A DNA stretch of 64,000 bases from Thomasclavelia ramosa DSM 1402 (GTDB lineage: Bacteria; Bacillota_I; Bacilli_A; Erysipelotrichales; Coprobacillaceae): contig NZ_CP036346.1 in NCBI RefSeq assembly GCF_014131695.1, forward strand, positions 372,001 to 436,000. The letters run 5' to 3'. Position 1 is the first letter of the stretch; the number at the start of each line of letters is the position of its first letter. Shown piece after piece: positions 13,440 through 62,123 of the stretch. Below the pieces are notes generated by a model, which made no database searches, was not told where the DNA came from, and was given only the letters and a program-made list of their open reading frames with translations. The position numbers were made by a program, and so were the translations under genes.

Positions 13440-13690
13440 AATAAAAACCCTAAGCACTTATGCTAGGGCGAATAGATTATCCGTGGTACCACCTAATTTC
13501 CAAATTTCTTTGGCTCTTGCTTCATGTACGGAGTTAAATACTCGATACACTATCCTGATAACGTAGGAAATACGTTGAAGTCTACTTAAGTTTCCTTGTT
13601 CGATTCACTGCTCGAAGGCTACCTTCAATAATTATGTTGTAAAGATTTTCACCAGCCATCTTTTCTCTAAAACTCCATAATTATTTACTC
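13440..13690 (-). promoter_or_regulatory. T-box riboswitch (tRNA-sensing leader) of the aminotransferase gene
   Basis: On the minus strand the T-box sequence AGGTGGTACCACGG lies at 13494-13481, downstream of a long structured Stem I region containing AGAGAAAAGATGGCTGGTG. The T-box can pair into an antiterminator that competes with the terminator at 13470-13443 (CCCTAGCA/TGCTTAGGG then five T). A GAGTTT/AAACTT pairing can close Stem I. In the 3' arm of Stem I the sequence GAAC-AAG-G suggests an AAG (Lys) specifier, but AAC (Asn) in the adjacent register cannot be excluded. Confidence 0.88.
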
Positions 13691-13771
13691 TTCCCTGTCA
13701 TTGCATTTGTACTTGGATGTTTATTTTTACTCATAATAGTCCTATTTTAAAGAAATGTCAATTGTTTTTTA

Positions 13772-31199: not shown

Positions 31200-31366
31200 T
31201 CGGATGATAATGGCGAAAGAGATTCTAATTGAACACCGAAGAATTAAAGATTTCAGGTAAAAGGATCGCTATTGGACGAACCTCTGGAGAGACTTATTAA
31301 ATTAAGCACCGAAGGAGCAAGCCTATTTATAGGTGAAACTCTCAGGTAAAAGGACAGTGGGATGAA
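31200..31366 (+). promoter_or_regulatory. Tandem glycine riboswitch
   Basis: Two consecutive glycine aptamers are visible. The first (about 31202-31275) contains ACACCGAAGAATTAAAG and CAGGTAAAAGGATCGC; the second (about 31285-31362) contains GGAGAGACTT, GCACCGAAGGAGCAAGCC and CTCAGGTAAAAGGACAGTGG. The repeated CACCGAAG and AGGTAAAAGGA cores are the family hallmarks. It lies 54 bases upstream of an amino-acid/sodium symporter gene, which it is expected to control in response to glycine. Such switches often turn on glycine cleavage but may switch off uptake genes. Confidence 0.95.
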
Positions 31367-54006: not shown

Positions 54007-54561
54007 ATGAAACGTTTTTGTGAAAAAATAAGCATATTTTTATTAGATGTTGATAATGTGACTGAGGATGAAATTGATGAAGTAAGATTTGGTATTGAAC
54101 TCATTTTGACTCAAATGATTTTATTTTTTTTGTTGTTAGCAATCGGCATTTTTAGAAATATGGTACTAGAAACAATAATATTTATTATTGCATTAGTTGG
54201 ATTACGGACATTTGTAGACGGTTATCATGCTGATAGTTTTTATCGCTGTATGTTTTTAACGACTTTGTTATATCTTGGTACGCTCTATTTTGCGGATTTT
54301 GAAAATAGCTATCTTCTAATTATGGCAATACTTATTGCTGCTAAAGCATTTATGTGGCAAGAAAATCATGAAGCACGGAATGTGAAAATAAGTAAATTAA
54401 TTTTTTGGGGATGTCTGGCTGTGATTGGATTAATTTATCCTATAGAACCACGACTAAGCATGATAATTGGTTTTACTTTATTTTTTACAGGTGTAAGTAT
54501 GGAGGTGAAAAAACATGGCTATAAAGAAAAAAGTAGTTTCATTAGTGAAAAAAGTATCTAA
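54007..54561 (+). CDS. agrB: AgrB-like accessory gene regulator peptidase
   Basis: A 184-aa membrane cysteine endopeptidase that cleaves and cyclises the AgrD precursor. The catalytic pair His74 and Cys81 lies in DGYHADSFYRC, with the family spacing of seven residues. About four to five hydrophobic helices surround it. ATGGAGG precedes the start. Its C-terminus overlaps the beginning of the agrD-like gene in another frame by 47 bases. Confidence 0.92.
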   Translation: MKRFCEKISIFLLDVDNVTEDEIDEVRFGIELILTQMILFFLLLAIGIFRNMVLETIIFIIALVGLRTFVDGYHADSFYRCMFLTTLLYLGTLYFADFENSYLLIMAILIAAKAFMWQENHEARNVKISKLIFWGCLAVIGLIYPIEPRLSMIIGFTLFFTGVSMEVKKHGYKEKSSFISEKSI

Positions 54562-54622
54562 AAAATATGCAGATAATTATTCACCGGGTGGGATGTACAA
54601 ACCAACAAGAAATAAGAAATAA
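54515..54622 (+). CDS. agrD: AgrD-like autoinducer peptide precursor without cysteine
   Basis: A 35-aa peptide begins inside the 3' end of agrB with GGAGG 8 bases before its ATG. The basic amphipathic N-terminus (MAIKKKVVSLVKKVSKK) is typical of AgrD leaders. The following NYSPGGMYKPTRNKK occupies the place of the autoinducer and C-terminal tail. There is no cysteine, so a thiolactone cannot form; Ser23 could make a lactone, as in the Ser-containing FsrD/GBAP peptide of Enterococcus. The tail lacks the acidic residues common in staphylococcal AgrD. Confidence 0.75.
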   Translation: MAIKKKVVSLVKKVSKKYADNYSPGGMYKPTRNKK

Positions 54623-56930: not shown

Positions 56931-56999
56931 CTTATTTCCTCCGTATATTTATTTTACACATAAAGCATACACGTTTATTCAAATAAATGTTTTGTTTTT

Positions 57000-57105
57000 T
57001 CAAGACTTGAAAATATCTATCCATCTTATTGACGATAAATCAAGGGTTTCAAGCGATTAGAAGCAGTTAAATGTACCTCGTAAGTAACAAATAAGTAACA
57101 AAAAT
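57000..57105. other. Probable left boundary of the integrated element
   Basis: This stretch between GH4 and the integrase should contain the attachment site. It holds a palindrome TTTCAAG-A-CTTGAAA (57001 region), a further TTTCAAG near 57049 and the repeat TAAGTAAC twice (about 57080 and 57091). Which of these is the crossover core cannot be told without the right end, which lies beyond the window. Confidence 0.4.
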
Positions 57106-58215
57106 TCAAGACTTAGGAACCTTGATTTTGTTGATTTCTTTATATAGTGTTTCAATTACGGTAGATGTATAAGTATCAAAGGTTATATCTTTCATTTTGT
57201 GACCAAGAATACGTTTTCTTATAAACAGATCAACGTTGTTAGACTGACATAATGTTGCAAATGTATCCCTAGTATCATGTATTGTATGCTTCATATTATG
57301 ATTAGTTAAAAAAGAGGAGAACATAGATGAAAACTGATAGTAGGTACAGTCAATTATTCTTTTCTTTTTCTTCATCAACAGCTGTTTAACAAAAGGTTCG
57401 ATAAAAGTATGAATGGGAATTACTCGATTTTTACCTGTATCAGTTTTTGATCCAGATACTAAATAGGGGAATTCTGTGTTTAAACAAATATTTTTACGCG
57501 GGATATTCAGCAGTTCATTTGCTCTTAAACCGGTGAAAATATAAATAAGTATTATTTTAGCCGTATCGCTGTTATCGCTCATCAATACTCTTATTTCGTC
57601 ATTTGAGAAAGCATAATGTTTAGTGCTTTCTTTTGCTTTGCCGCATTTTATATATTCAGTGTAATCATCGTCACGATTTATATATTTGTGAATAACTGCA
57701 TATTCAAATATTTTGCTAACTAAAACTTTCATATGTACTTTTGTACCGTAACCAGCTTTATCACGATCAAATATTTCCTGCAGATCGGCCAGACTTATTT
57801 GACTGATCTTGTGGTGGTATATACTGTTAAAATGTTTAATCCACGATCTATAACCTTGAGCAGCACTTTTCGATAATGTGCACAATTCTTCCTGATATAT
57901 AATATCAAAGATTTCTTTAAAGGTAGGCATATTCTTTTCACGCTGATCAACAAGCTTCTGGAATGTATCGGGTGCAAGTGCTTCAGCTTCCGTATCAGTA
58001 ATCTTATTTTTTTGACCAAGCCTGTATAAAGTCAAAGCATCATCAGCCTCATCCCAGGTCTCAAAGGTTCCCAGTACTGTTTGTATCTGCCTACCGGTAA
58101 TAATATCTTTTCCAGTAGTTATTTTAGCGCACCAGGGGCGTCTTCGTTTACCTGATAGTTTTATTACTGTTCCTGCTTTGTTCGGCCTGCGCTTAAAAGT
58201 CTGCTTTCTAGCCAT
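57106..58215 (-). CDS. int: Phage/ICE-type tyrosine recombinase (integrase)
   Basis: A 369-aa site-specific recombinase with an N-terminal arm-binding AP2-like domain (about 15-70), a SAM-like core-binding domain (about 95-185) and a complete catalytic domain. The catalytic residues are Arg231 (FTGLRANELL), Lys257 (SGSKTDTG), His313 and Arg316 (HDTRDTFA), His339 (ILGHKM) and Tyr349 (TFDTYT). It lies at the left end of the element and points outward, as usual for prophages of Firmicutes. Confidence 0.96.
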   Translation of the reverse strand: MARKQTFKRRPNKAGTVIKLSGKRRRPWCAKITTGKDIITGRQIQTVLGTFETWDEADDALTLYRLGQKNKITDTEAEALAPDTFQKLVDQREKNMPTFKEIFDIIYQEELCTLSKSAAQGYRSWIKHFNSIYHHKISQISLADLQEIFDRDKAGYGTKVHMKVLVSKIFEYAVIHKYINRDDDYTEYIKCGKAKESTKHYAFSNDEIRVLMSDNSDTAKIILIYIFTGLRANELLNIPRKNICLNTEFPYLVSGSKTDTGKNRVIPIHTFIEPFVKQLLMKKKKRIIDCTYYQFSSMFSSFLTNHNMKHTIHDTRDTFATLCQSNNVDLFIRKRILGHKMKDITFDTYTSTVIETLYKEINKIKVPKS

Positions 58216-58219
58216 AATA

Positions 58220-58256
58220 AAAACACGTCCTTTCTATATTTGCCTTAGACGTGTTT
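58220..58256. promoter_or_regulatory. Inverted repeat upstream of int
   Basis: AAACACGTC (58220-58228) and GACGTGTTT (58248-58256) are perfect inverse copies 19 bases apart. They cover the int leader and the -35 of the divergent RNA promoter, so a single regulator could control both. Confidence 0.5.
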
Positions 58257-58268
58257 AGGTGTTATAAT
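58240..58268 (+). promoter_or_regulatory. Candidate promoter of a small RNA divergent from int
   Basis: TTGCCT (58240-58245), a 17-base spacer and TATAAT (58263-58268). Confidence 0.6.
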
Positions 58269-58274
58269 TAAGCA

Positions 58275-58366
58275 CGTAAAAGGACTTTTGGTTGAGTCTT
58301 TTATAAATATGAAGTATTGGTAGTACTTCATTCGACTTCACTGTTGGTAGCAGTGGAGTTTTTTTA
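58275..58366 (+). ncRNA. Candidate ~90-nt small RNA of three hairpins with a common loop
   Basis: Three consecutive stem-loops follow a good promoter. Hairpin 1 (58279-58302) has loop TTTGGTTG, hairpin 2 (58311-58329) loop TTGGTAG and hairpin 3 (58335-58359) loop TTGGTAG; the last is followed by a T run and is a good intrinsic terminator. The stems differ in sequence (AAGGACT, GAAGTA, ACTTCACTG) while the loops are kept, which suggests that the loops are the functional part, for example as an RNA or protein binding site. There is no coding frame. Confidence 0.6.
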
Positions 58367-58394: not shown

Positions 58395-58805
58395 TTATCT
58401 TGATAACTGTCTTATCGCAGTAATTATTGAATCTGTATTCCAACGCACAACAGGATATTGTTGTAATTCTATCGGCATACGTTCTTGTCCACGGGGAGCA
58501 ACTATAATAATTGGTTTTCTAAGTTTTTTAGCAGCTTCAAGTTCGTATTTCATCCATTTTCTGTGAGCGTACATTCCGCCTAATATAATTACACAATTTA
58601 CAGGTTTTATTTTTTTATCAATCGCTTCTTTGATTTGATAATCAAAAGCATTGTTTGATATCGCTAATGGTTTTTCTTTTGGAGCAGAATAATTTCTATA
58701 GTAAAAGTAAGAAGCTTTATCAAGTAAATTAATTAAATTATCATAATCATCGCCGTATAACCAAGCATGACTGATAAAAAGATCATAGGTTTTTAATGAT
58801 GGCAT
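58395..58805 (-). CDS. TIR-like (MTH538/ThsB-type) domain protein
   Basis: A 136-aa single-domain protein of the MTH538/DUF1863 TIR-like family that contains Thoeris ThsB. YDLFISHAWLYGDDYDNLINLLDK at the N-terminus, the NYSAP turn after it, VNCVIILGGMYAHRKWMKYELEAAKKLRKPIIIV and RWNTDSIITAIR are all family features. Glu88 (WMKYE) takes the place of the TIR catalytic glutamate. ThsB proteins detect phage and make an NAD-derived signal for an effector. Here no ThsA is nearby; a SLATT membrane protein is encoded 250 bases upstream on the same strand. AAAGGAAG precedes the ATG. Confidence 0.9.
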   Translation of the reverse strand: MPSLKTYDLFISHAWLYGDDYDNLINLLDKASYFYYRNYSAPKEKPLAISNNAFDYQIKEAIDKKIKPVNCVIILGGMYAHRKWMKYELEAAKKLRKPIIIVAPRGQERMPIELQQYPVVRWNTDSIITAIRQLSR

Positions 58806-58864
58806 AAATTTCACTTCCTTTCTAAAATGAATTTGGTTATAATATAAACAAAGAGGTGGTTCAT

Positions 58865-59065
58865 ATGACAAAATATAAAGTGCGTAAAAAACCAATACTA
58901 GTTGATGCATATCAAACAGATCATTCTTTCTATATAGATACTTTAGAAGGTAGAATGAAGGCTGAAAAAGGTGATTGGATTATTACTGGTGTCAATGGTG
59001 AACGGTATCCCTGTAAACCAGAAATTTTTGAGAAAACTTATGATATTATAATAGAAGAAGGTTAA
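58865..59065 (+). CDS. Small phage-type protein, unknown function
   Basis: A 66-aa protein of a type frequent in Firmicute prophages: KYKVRKKPILVDAYQTD, then a DTLEGRMKAEKGDWIITGVNGERYPCKPEIFEKTY segment with a characteristic GDWIITG turn. AAAGAGGTGG precedes the ATG at 58865; an in-frame GTG at 58856 lies inside that site. It is transcribed against its neighbours and its last 4 bases overlap the end of the SLATT gene. A TATAAT lies at 58838-58843. Confidence 0.8.
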   Translation: MTKYKVRKKPILVDAYQTDHSFYIDTLEGRMKAEKGDWIITGVNGERYPCKPEIFEKTYDIIIEEG

Positions 59066-59499
59066 TCCCTCTTTTTTTCATTTAGTTGAGCCCAATTTTG
59101 ATTTTCTGTTGCCATGATGCTTTCAGAGCGTTCAACAAATAAATTAAAGGCTTGATCATTTTGATAATAATCACTAGATTTTGTTAGAAATAAATATTTT
59201 TCTTGTTTTAACTTTTCACAAGTTGCTCTATATGTAAGAAAGTGTTCATGAAAATCTTTTAATTTATCTAGTGATAGCATAAAGGCAACTGAAAATCCAG
59301 CCATAGCCCCAAAAATAGAGAAAGCGATCTTTAAATCAGTAAAAATATATCCTAAAATAGTTATCATTGATCCAGATGTAGAAACAAATATGCTGCATAT
59401 TGTAATAAAATTATGGCATTTTTTATATTTAATAGATTTTTTATCGTACCAGTCTATTTGATTATCAATTCTTAAAGATATGTAATCATTTTCATCCAT
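59062..59499 (-). CDS. SLATT-domain (DUF4231-like) membrane protein
   Basis: A 145-aa protein with two adjacent transmembrane helices (about 31-52 and 56-78) and a long cytoplasmic helix (about 80-140), the SLATT layout. The N-terminal LRIDNQIDWYDKKSIKYKKCHN and HFLTYRATCEKLKQEKYLFLTKSSDYY match the DUF4231 branch. SLATT proteins were proposed by comparative genomics to be pore-forming effectors in nucleotide-signal defence systems. It lies near a ThsB-type TIR gene on the same strand. GAGGGG precedes the ATG. Confidence 0.85.
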   Translation of the reverse strand: MDENDYISLRIDNQIDWYDKKSIKYKKCHNFITICSIFVSTSGSMITILGYIFTDLKIAFSIFGAMAGFSVAFMLSLDKLKDFHEHFLTYRATCEKLKQEKYLFLTKSSDYYQNDQAFNLFVERSESIMATENQNWAQLNEKKRD

Positions 59500-59524
59500 T
59501 TTAGCCCCTCCCTATAGAATTACT

Positions 59525-59860
59525 TTATTCATTTAAAAACTTTGTAAATTTGTAACGCGCTTCTTCTAAAGAATGAATCATTTTATCAAGGTTTCCATTT
59601 GTTGGTTCAGTGAAACCAAAGGCCATAGCTTCGCTGTAATTTCTTAAAAATTTATTATATACAGTTTGACTTACATTTATTGGCTTTCCAACTCTTTTTA
59701 TTTGCTGTAATCTATTTTTACAACTGTTTTTAAGAATTTTATATTTACTTTTTAATTCACAAGAAGGTAATTGGCGTTCGAAGATCATATTCATTAGCTC
59801 ATTACATTCTTCAGCAGTACTCCTTAATTCATCATATAGTTGCTTTTCATTATGATTCAT
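59525..59860 (-). CDS. Helical protein of unknown function
   Basis: A 111-aa, mostly helical, soluble protein (EKQLYDELRSTAEECNELMNMIFE at the start; VSQTVYNKFLRNYSEAMAFGF in the middle; a last helix MIHSLEEARYKFTKFL). No family recognised. AAGGGAGA precedes the ATG. It lies 25 bases upstream of the SLATT gene on the same strand, so the two are probably one operon and it may be part of the same system. Confidence 0.65.
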   Translation of the reverse strand: MNHNEKQLYDELRSTAEECNELMNMIFERQLPSCELKSKYKILKNSCKNRLQQIKRVGKPINVSQTVYNKFLRNYSEAMAFGFTEPTNGNLDKMIHSLEEARYKFTKFLNE

Positions 59861-59953
59861 AATTTTATTCTCCCTTCGTATTTTATTTATATAAACACTA
59901 TGAAGTGTATTTACCGTATTTGGTTATGTATAGATTCAATTTATCACCTTACG

Positions 59954-61432
59954 CTAATTATTATTTTCAATTTCTAAAGTCTGCCTATATTCTGCAGCAG
60001 TAGGAACTTTAATAAAATCTACTGTTTTATTATAATTTCTTTTTACCACATCTTCTATTTCATCGAGTGTAACCTTAAAGAATTCTTTTCTAAAATTTAC
60101 TTTATTTACACTTCTTTCACGGAATGTTTGGTGCAATATATTTTCTAGTTCAGGGGCATTATCACTAAAAATCATTGCATGAACATCAAATTCAAAAGGA
60201 ACAGAAGCGCTACTTAATTCTTTAATTCTGTCCATAGGCTCTAGTCTACGTGTCATACCAATTTTATAAATATTTTCTCCAAATGAGCCAATGTTAGAAA
60301 TAATATATACAAATCCAGCTCTTGCGTTCATTTCCCTATCAAGAACAACTTGTTTTTCTTCTTCCAATTTTTTTATTTTTTCTTCTAATTCACGTATTTT
60401 ATCCATATATAGTTCTTTTTCAGCATCATTAGAAGTTTTTTGTAGATATTTCATCATTCGTGTAACTTCATTGTTAAATTGCTTCTGGTCTTTTTCTAAT
60501 TTTTGCTTTTGTTTTTCTATTTCTCTTCTTACCTTTTCTTCTTCTACCATCTGCTCTTTAATTGCTTTTTGTATATCTTTTTCATTATTTTTTTTCATTT
60601 CATATAGATATAGCGTGTTTAGTTGATCTAGTTTAATTTGTAACCAGTTTTGATTTAATTGAATACCATCAGTTTCAAAAATCTTATTTAAACTATTGAA
60701 TGAACGAGTTATTTTATTTCGGGAAGTATCGATATTTTTTATAGTGACTTTATTCATTACATTGTCACATTCTGCATTAAATAAACGGGTTATTTGTTTT
60801 GTATTATTTGCTATAAACTTTTTATCCTCAATGTAAGGTGATATAGCAAGTAGGTTGCCATTTTTTAAATCATTCTCTTCATTAATACGAGAAATACTTA
60901 ATTTATTTTTGTATTCTTCAGAAGTGACATTTTCAAAATCAGCAAAATCGAAATGTTTTTTTATTGCTTCTGATTTTAAAGTGTCTAGTTCATTTAATAA
61001 ATTTTGTTTCTCTTCATTTAAGTTTTCAATATCAATTTTGAGATTCTTAACATTGATTGCTAAATTTTTATTTAGATCAGATTCTTTTTCTTTAATGTTT
61101 TTTTCTAAAGTTTGGACTTTTTCAGAATACTCTTTTTCTATACTGGTTATTTTTGCTTCCAAATTCTGAACTTCTTTAGAGTAATTGTTTTTTGCTTCCT
61201 CTAATTTAGAATTGTAATCAATGATACCAAAAACATATTCTTCATGACCTATTAAAGGTTGGTATTGTTGTAGTAATAGTTTAATTTTCTTTTGTCTAAT
61301 GAATTGCAAAGTAATGGCAATTATTAATGGTATTCCATAAAGAACCCCAAAAAATGATAAAAAAATAGCAAAATAAGGACTGTAATACCATTTATTTAAT
61401 TTTTCAAATTCTTCTTTTGTAATTTTGTTCAT
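59954..61432 (-). CDS. DUF4041 and T5orf172 (GIY-YIG-like) domain protein with membrane anchor
   Basis: A 492-aa protein: one or two hydrophobic segments near residues 18-45, a coiled coil (about 75-160), a DUF4041 region (about 165-300; FADFENVTSEEYKNKL and NIDTSRNKITRSFNSLNKIFE), a second coiled coil and a C-terminal T5orf172 domain (about 390-480; GFVYIISNIGSFGENIYKIGMTRRLEPMDRIKELSSAS) related to GIY-YIG nucleases. Such proteins are common in the lysogeny region of phages and may act in exclusion. The ATG at 61432 follows GAGAGGGG; an upstream TTG is less likely. Confidence 0.85.
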   Translation of the reverse strand: MNKITKEEFEKLNKWYYSPYFAIFLSFFGVLYGIPLIIAITLQFIRQKKIKLLLQQYQPLIGHEEYVFGIIDYNSKLEEAKNNYSKEVQNLEAKITSIEKEYSEKVQTLEKNIKEKESDLNKNLAINVKNLKIDIENLNEEKQNLLNELDTLKSEAIKKHFDFADFENVTSEEYKNKLSISRINEENDLKNGNLLAISPYIEDKKFIANNTKQITRLFNAECDNVMNKVTIKNIDTSRNKITRSFNSLNKIFETDGIQLNQNWLQIKLDQLNTLYLYEMKKNNEKDIQKAIKEQMVEEEKVRREIEKQKQKLEKDQKQFNNEVTRMMKYLQKTSNDAEKELYMDKIRELEEKIKKLEEEKQVVLDREMNARAGFVYIISNIGSFGENIYKIGMTRRLEPMDRIKELSSASVPFEFDVHAMIFSDNAPELENILHQTFRERSVNKVNFRKEFFKVTLDEIEDVVKRNYNKTVDFIKVPTAAEYRQTLEIENNN

Positions 61433-61453
61433 ATAGTTGACCCCTCTCTCCAA

Positions 61454-61733: not shown

Positions 61734-62123
61734 TCATCTCGTTTCTTTATTAAATGTATCGATGATTTTTAGTATTTGTTCTAGGTCTTTTGGTTCTAGT
61801 TTTTTCGCTTTATCAAATAAAATTGCAAGTTGATCATTTTTAAGTATTTCCTTATACAGTTCCAACAATTCAGGTTGATTCTTTAAATATTCGACATTTT
61901 CTTCATAGTCACCTAATTGTGAATTTTCCCACCCCATTATATAAGCAGGACTGACATTGAAAATTAATGCTAACTTTTCAATTTTATCACTAGGTATATT
62001 TGTTACTATATTATTTTCATATTTAAATATTGTTTGTCTAGATGTACCAAGTTTATCTGCAATTTCATCTAAGGTATAGTTATTTTTTAATCTTAAATTT
62101 TTTATTCTTTCACCAATTGTCAT
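61734..62123 (-). CDS. XRE-family phage repressor (CI-like)
   Basis: A 129-aa protein with an N-terminal HTH_3 domain (residues 3-62; IGERIKNLRLKNNYTLDEIADKLGTSRQTIFKYEN) and a helical C-terminal oligomerisation part, without a LexA-type peptidase. Cleavage by the ImmA-like neighbour is the probable inactivation route. It is divergent from a Cro-like gene over a 177-base region with repeated TAACTT half-sites. AGGAAGTG precedes the ATG. Confidence 0.93.
   Translation of the reverse strand: MTIGERIKNLRLKNNYTLDEIADKLGTSRQTIFKYENNIVTNIPSDKIEKLALIFNVSPAYIMGWENSQLGDYEENVEYLKNQPELLELYKEILKNDQLAILFDKAKKLEPKDLEQILKIIDTFNKETR

Follow-up and report, generated by a model that had tools for sequence, protein, structure and literature searches.

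Loops that switch in concert in a small RNA beside the integrase of Erysipelotrichales prophages, a candidate RNAI-like antisense RNA

Next to the integrase gene (int) of a prophage of Thomasclavelia ramosa DSM 1402, we found a small RNA of three hairpins that belongs, with near certainty, to a genuine structured RNA family found in Erysipelotrichales prophages and, beyond these, in a few further phages. The stems of this RNA covary strongly, and the loops of its second and third hairpins are usually alike within one RNA and change together from phage to phage. The RNA family is new, the type of mechanism that we propose for it is known, and the setting is new: we suggest a kissing-loop antisense RNA, similar in design to plasmid RNAI, that would act against read-through of the lysogeny operon into int, a chain of steps to which, taken as a whole, we give an even chance. 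Coordinates refer to the window, that is, the whole stretch of 64,000 nucleotides that was analysed (contig NZ_CP036346.1, positions 372,001 to 436,000).

Anatomy and genomic setting of the small RNA

The promoter of the small RNA matches 10 of 12 consensus bases, has a spacer of 17 and a TG ahead of its -10 element, and came out of a promoter scan as the top-scoring promoter-like site of the region (Table 1), though alone it proves little because such sites as a class are no commoner than in shuffled sequence. At the other end, the paired part of the third hairpin spans 58334-58360 and overlaps a T-run at 58359-58365, and this hairpin was called as an intrinsic terminator. Both elements had been part of the original prediction, as had three hairpins with the loops UUGGUUG, UUGGUAG and UUGGUAG, which are borne out by direct reading of the sequence and by a fold of -41.8 kcal/mol (z = -4.4) that none of 200 shuffles equalled in stability. 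The opposite strand folds less well (-24.1), and the G.U pairs of the stems lie on the RNA strand, which is therefore the one selected for folding. Judging from these sequence signals, the RNA is probably expressed. Rfam holds no family that scores above its gathering threshold for the small RNA and gives chance matches only at E up to 10, in keeping with the earlier remark that no named phage RNA has such a design; a search of the literature found no description of it either, which is weak evidence given that only the open-access set was covered.

In the window, the start codon of int lies about 60 nt from the 5' end of the RNA, which runs away from int toward mostly minus-strand lysogeny genes (for a CI-type repressor, a PD-Lambda-1-like defence protein, a SLATT protein and TIR/ThsB), and the stop codon of the TIR/ThsB gene lies about 30 nt past the RNA end. 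From this arrangement, cI, the cargo genes and int probably form one operon. The cargo of the lysogeny module (58395-61453, minus strand) resembles defence genes, with a ThsB-like TIR protein, a SLATT/DUF4231 membrane protein and a PD-Lambda-1-like protein. The prophage measures about 41 kb and has arm-like repeats (TAAGTAACAAATA); neither these nor the att core contain the loop sequence, and a link between the RNA and the attachment site was discarded on these grounds. Elsewhere in the window there are an ordinary T-box leader (13461-13710, minus strand), an ordinary tandem glycine riboswitch (31204-31360, plus strand) and, from translations only, what is probably an agrB-like gene with a small agrD-like peptide behind it (54007-54622, plus strand).

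Table 1. Features of the small RNA and its surroundings in the window.
Feature	Position	Strand	Details
Likely attL core	56995..57012		TTTTTTCAAGACTTGAAA; second copy about 41 kb on, near position 470216 of genome contig C1
Tyrosine integrase (int)	57106..58215	-	Pfam PF00589, PHROG integrase; divergent from the RNA
Predicted int mRNA leader hairpin	58220..58257	-	AACACGUC...GACGUGUU and U-run; encloses ribosome site GAAAGGAC (58227-58234)
Promoter of the small RNA	58240..58268	+	-35 TTGCCT 58240-58245, -10 TATAAT 58263-58268; block kept in homologues
Segment a' of the putative read-through int mRNA	58274..58287	-	Complement of the RNA 5' end; GUCCUUU pairs with AAAGGAC
Predicted small RNA, about 92 nt	58274..58366	+	Probable start about 7 nt past the -10 element; fold and covariance
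Hairpin 1	58279..58302	+	Loop UUGGUU(G) 58288-58294; sequence reading
Hairpin 2	58309..58331	+	Loop UUGGUAG 58317-58323; fold, homologues, covariance
Hairpin 3, intrinsic terminator	58334..58366	+	Loop UUGGUAG 58344-58350; terminator call, homologues, covariance
TIR (ThsB-like) cargo gene	58395..58805	-	Last gene of the probable lysogeny operon before the RNA, to which it is convergent
CI-type repressor	61734..62123	-	Upstream on the minus strand

Spread of the family and variation of its stems and loops

In a DNA search of 43 family genomes, the region had clear homologues in about a dozen of them, and the pattern of the promoter block revealed further ones in phage contigs and named genomes including Thomasclavelia, Massilimicrobiota and Faecalibacillus. 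Of 316 Erysipelotrichales genomes, 27 proved to contain the RNA in the covariance-model search that the original prediction had proposed, and class and phylum samples yielded no carrier beyond this order. Because the loops of 6 and 7 nt had been misaligned by MAFFT, the initial alignment (A1) and its model (R1) were of poor quality, and A2/R2 and A4/R3 were used instead. Scanning IMG/VR for the loop pattern added at least L185, L277 and L302 as well as L222, from a phage of 62% GC, among the matches listed; these four were found via their loops and were left out as evidence of loop agreement.

As a rule, the 5' end of the RNA lies 35-95 nt upstream of the start codon of the integrase, and the RNA is directed away from int. 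Its 5' neighbour is usually an integrase of tyrosine or serine type (serine-like in L104, L127, L131 and L302, judged from translations), and the divergent gene is a different one at a few loci, encoding a lipoprotein in L103 and other proteins in L096 and at the second copy in L035. Past the 3' end, 38 of the 41 cases have their nearest gene on the operon strand; for two of the three exceptions, the L096 and L035 second copies, our script apparently missed a frame on the operon strand (seen in the phage of L096), and L048, with a plus-strand gene past the RNA, is the remaining one. Terminators predicted on the operon strand between the 3' gene and the 5' gene occur at only few loci. With an operon-strand gene past the RNA and such terminators rare, the RNA is antisense to what a read-through operon mRNA would carry as its int leader. 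Two copies in one phage were seen for L096/L095 (G054), with the same loops, and for L035 (G043), with different ones, and an extra hairpin is inserted between hairpins 2 and 3 in L045, L057, L134 and the second copies in L035 and L096.

Covariation was scored on 14 homologues with 7-nt loops. Pairing is intact in 96.5% of their stem cells, and double changes occur at 9 of 17 stem pairs; the score was reached by none of 500 shuffles, and slid controls fail. A wider, hand-made set anchored on the loops, and hence biased toward structure by construction, has compensatory variation in all 14 of its 14 pairs.

The loops vary in another manner. Most homologues carry UUGGUAG, and others UUGCCAG, UUACCAG, CUGGUAA or the six-base loops UUGGCG and UUGCAG, with the cores GGU, GCC, ACC, GGC and GCA across phages that are sometimes switched on unchanged stems. 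Within one RNA, the loops of hairpins 2 and 3 are identical in 13 of 19 clusters against 2.7 expected (0 of 20000 permutations), in a test that loses power at very coarse clustering (6 groups). The loop recurs in hairpin 1 of some members only (L011, L017, L035), and in the window hairpin 1 has UUGGUUG. The earlier idea of kept loops therefore stands inside each RNA and fails between homologues, where loops change type. L047 and L015, for example, have identical stems in hairpins 2 and 3 and yet the loops UUGGUAG and UUGCAG, respectively, both loops having changed, and the closely related RNAs L020 and L021 also differ by a switch. Conserved stems with varying loops are, taken literally, what the original prediction had named as evidence against itself, but that both loops change at once argues for a swapped address and not for neutral loops. 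The loops thus behave as a set under selection, as had been proposed.

Differences between the two loops point the same way. Among six cases in which hairpins 2 and 3 differ by a single base, five are transitions that G.U pairing with a common partner would tolerate (L023, the second copy in L035, L129, L138 (C/U), L547 (G/A); the exception is L045), and in L048 and L128 the loops differ by more than one base. Such wobble-tolerated differences favour pairing with one common sequence over recognition by a protein, and we are fairly confident that the loops act by pairing. The heptamer is not enriched in the window (17 occurrences against 16.3 expected), and we also screened 311 distinct terminators from about 1.05 Mb of phage and host DNA for the loop cores GGT, ACC, TGGC and TGCC. 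As far as the two scans could be matched to each other, such cores (in UU..AG or UU..G) occurred only in the RNA family and in one second phage RNA, so that a general terminator loop preference of these genomes is not supported. The 7-nt frame YU-RSY-AR is its own reverse complement in kind, so that one strand or the other nearly always has a YUNR; the frame is not followed by 6-nt loops, UUGCAG for example. A YUNR U-turn has been reported in the sense or antisense loop of kissing systems (PMC4485353).

Three other readings of the hairpins were rejected. Mimicry of tRNA (D-loop GUUGGUAG; anticodon-like YU-NNN-AR) is ruled out by the 6-nt loops and the non-tRNA types, even though the anticodon-like frame of the loop remains. 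Recombinase core sites with a common spacer are excluded by arms that differ between the two hairpins, by G.U pairs confined to one strand and by the conserved promoter and T-run. Pairing of the loops with the second phage RNA was dropped since, compared by hand, the two are complementary in only about half of the phages.

A possible antisense mechanism at the int leader

We propose that transcription of the RNA begins in front of int and heads outward, opposing the minus-strand operon of cI, cargo genes and int. An operon transcript reading into int would carry complementary hairpins with CUACCAA loops; the loops of the RNA would kiss these first, because a pair of identical loops offers several possible starting points, and from there the contact would extend into a duplex. 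This duplex would be cut or attenuated before int is translated, leaving little integrase in the lysogen, and the loops would drift as a set until each phage lineage has an address of its own. Kissing with a complementary transcript is compatible with the sequence evidence, and from the whole arrangement we infer that regulation is negative and has Int as its output. Several points sit uneasily with the kissing antisense RNA. A pure cis-antisense RNA needs no identical loops, and the reason given above is borrowed from RNAI, where it is unproved too; the sense strand is the poorer folder, since the G.U pairs of the stems benefit the RNA strand; the int ribosome site lies outside the stretch that the RNA covers; and the model is strained by the loci at which the divergent gene is not int (L103, L096, the second copy in L035) and by the plus-strand gene past the RNA in L048.

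Alternatively, the shared loop could be the address for one outside RNA of the host, another prophage or an incoming phage, so that phages with different loops reach different targets. Loop identity within one RNA and wobble-type differences would fit one common partner of this sort as well, and a phage with two RNAs of different loops (L035) is what separate channels would look like. Yet sequences complementary to the loops occupy no shared position across the phage genomes examined and do not occur at phage start sites, and no complementary sites that switch along with the loops were found between related phages of different loop type. In the host, GGAG followed by CTACCAA occurs at 7 sites against 10 in a reversed control. 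The suggestion that CTACCAA might lie near ribosome sites thus found no enrichment in host or phages; pairing with CTACCAA as such is favoured, but the one place that carries it consistently is the strand opposite the RNA at its own locus, and a partner acting in trans appears unlikely to us.

A related proposal is control of superinfection or incompatibility, in which the RNA of a resident prophage silences int or the operon of an incoming phage with the same loop and switching is a means of escape. Switches on unchanged stems (L047 versus L015) and between close RNAs (L020 versus L021) speak for it, as does the resemblance to plasmid incompatibility groups, new ones of which are created by loop mutations in kissing systems (PMC4485353). 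However, copies in one genome or phage do not avoid the same loop type, being the same in G004, G012, G034 and G054 and different in G036, G040, G041, G043 and G197, and we judge this proposal improbable.

For the kissing antisense RNA, the int leader may provide a second lock. Segment a' can pair with the int ribosome site, with a mean energy of -9.85 kcal/mol for cognate and -6.78 kcal/mol for swapped combinations of 16 representatives (cognate value reached in 0 of 20000 permutations), and the ribosome site has a predicted accessibility of 0.28 when a' is present, 0.37 when a' is shuffled and 0.59 when a' is missing. These values are suggestive of a modest fold-back of the leader onto the site, and the matched arms could equally be a DNA operator. 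In the window lineage, the leader hairpin AACACGUC...GACGUGUU is predicted to hide the ribosome site even without a'; its z of only -0.4 is weak alone, and its sequence block is conserved in relatives. Full pairing of the RNA with its complement would free the ribosome site from the fold-back, and activation of int through pairing with a' is therefore conceivable. The better match of a' in cognate combinations would suit an activator, but we find it very doubtful, given the separate hairpin that would hide the site with or without a' in the window lineage and given that, to our knowledge, the well-known kissing antisense RNAs are negative regulators.

Least probable is a CsrB-like sponge that would take up an RNA-binding protein, a design of several hairpins with one loop in one RNA that the phage RNA matches, since the loop type changes between close relatives, neighbouring protein genes vary from phage to phage, and the repeated GGA in loops that marks CsrB/RsmZ is absent from UUGGUAG, UUGCCAG, UUACCAG, UUGGCG and UUGCAG; with loops that change and no matching protein partner found, the protein sequestration originally considered is disfavoured.

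Comparison with known antisense RNAs

Lambda OOP is a small, terminator-ended antisense RNA acting in the lysogeny region (PMC5869508), and the phage RNA would be like it in these respects. OOP overlaps the 3' end of cII, whereas our RNA does not overlap the 3' end of a cII- or xis-like gene and is instead found between the last cargo gene of the operon and int. An OOP-like layout is displayed by the second phage RNA, which is shorter, lies on the opposite strand about 200 nt beyond the window end (G000:C1, about 436200 or 436213) and is also present in G001, G048-G051, G053, G055 and L104: it has a promoter that mostly lies in an inverted repeat and one terminator hairpin with the loop UUGCCG, UUGGCG or CUGCAA, and it overlaps or adjoins the 3' end of a small excisionase/HTH-like gene.

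IS10 RNA-OUT is an outward antisense RNA beside a recombinase gene, and a fold-back hides the ribosome site in read-through transcripts. The phage RNA shares the outward antisense position next to a recombinase gene and, possibly, the hiding of the ribosome site, but in RNA-OUT the pairing extends across the ribosome site of the transposase mRNA, whereas the phage RNA stops 35-95 nt before the start codon and has several hairpins. In pIP501, two 3'-terminal stem-loops of RNAIII contact two target loops (PMC4485353). This two-loop contact design of RNAIII and similar plasmid antisense RNAs, likened here by description, resembles the phage RNA; those RNAs control rep mRNA, whereas the phage RNA sits before int.

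Contact of ColE1 RNAI (RF00106) with RNAII begins by loop-loop kissing (PMC11012335). Like the phage RNA, RNAI is an antisense RNA of about 100 nt whose hairpins 2 and 3 have different stems and a shared loop, the last being the terminator; the loop UUGGUAG itself recurs, and from one relative to another hairpins 2 and 3 change their loops jointly. The ColE1 and p15A RNAI sequences were verified by exact database matches. Across 18 ColE1-like plasmids (L147-L164), the two RNAI loops are mostly identical within a plasmid and change together between plasmids, with UUGGUAG in L161-L164, UUGCCG in L151, L157 and L159, and further UUGCUG, CUGCAA, CCGCAA and CCCC, some of them read by eye from the sequences; loops are mixed in L147, L148, L152, L155, L156 and p15A. 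We have not seen this regularity of the classic system stated by an author, and the sharing of one loop by hairpins 2 and 3, the last a terminator, which the phage RNA also exhibits, is a feature observed here and not a published criterion. The RNAI covariance model does not match the phage RNA at E up to 10, whereas the four ColE1-like loci tested as controls all match. Moreover, the phage RNA adjoins an integrase and not a replication primer, and the rare loci with a different neighbour give no hint of a replication origin; its hairpin 1 is unrelated, and its hosts are mostly Gram-positive. The resemblance to RNAI is one of design and loop vocabulary, not of family membership.

If the kissing antisense RNA is real, RNA control of the ColE1 type would operate in temperate phages of common gut bacteria, at the gene for integration and excision. 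That such plasmid-style RNAs with exchangeable addresses, in two to three loops changing together, amount to a prophage compatibility code at the integration module is a tentative idea that we think will probably not hold. The phage RNA and the ColE1 plasmids appear to follow a common rule by which the hairpins of one antisense RNA keep one loop and switch it together, and this rule can be tested by loop swaps.
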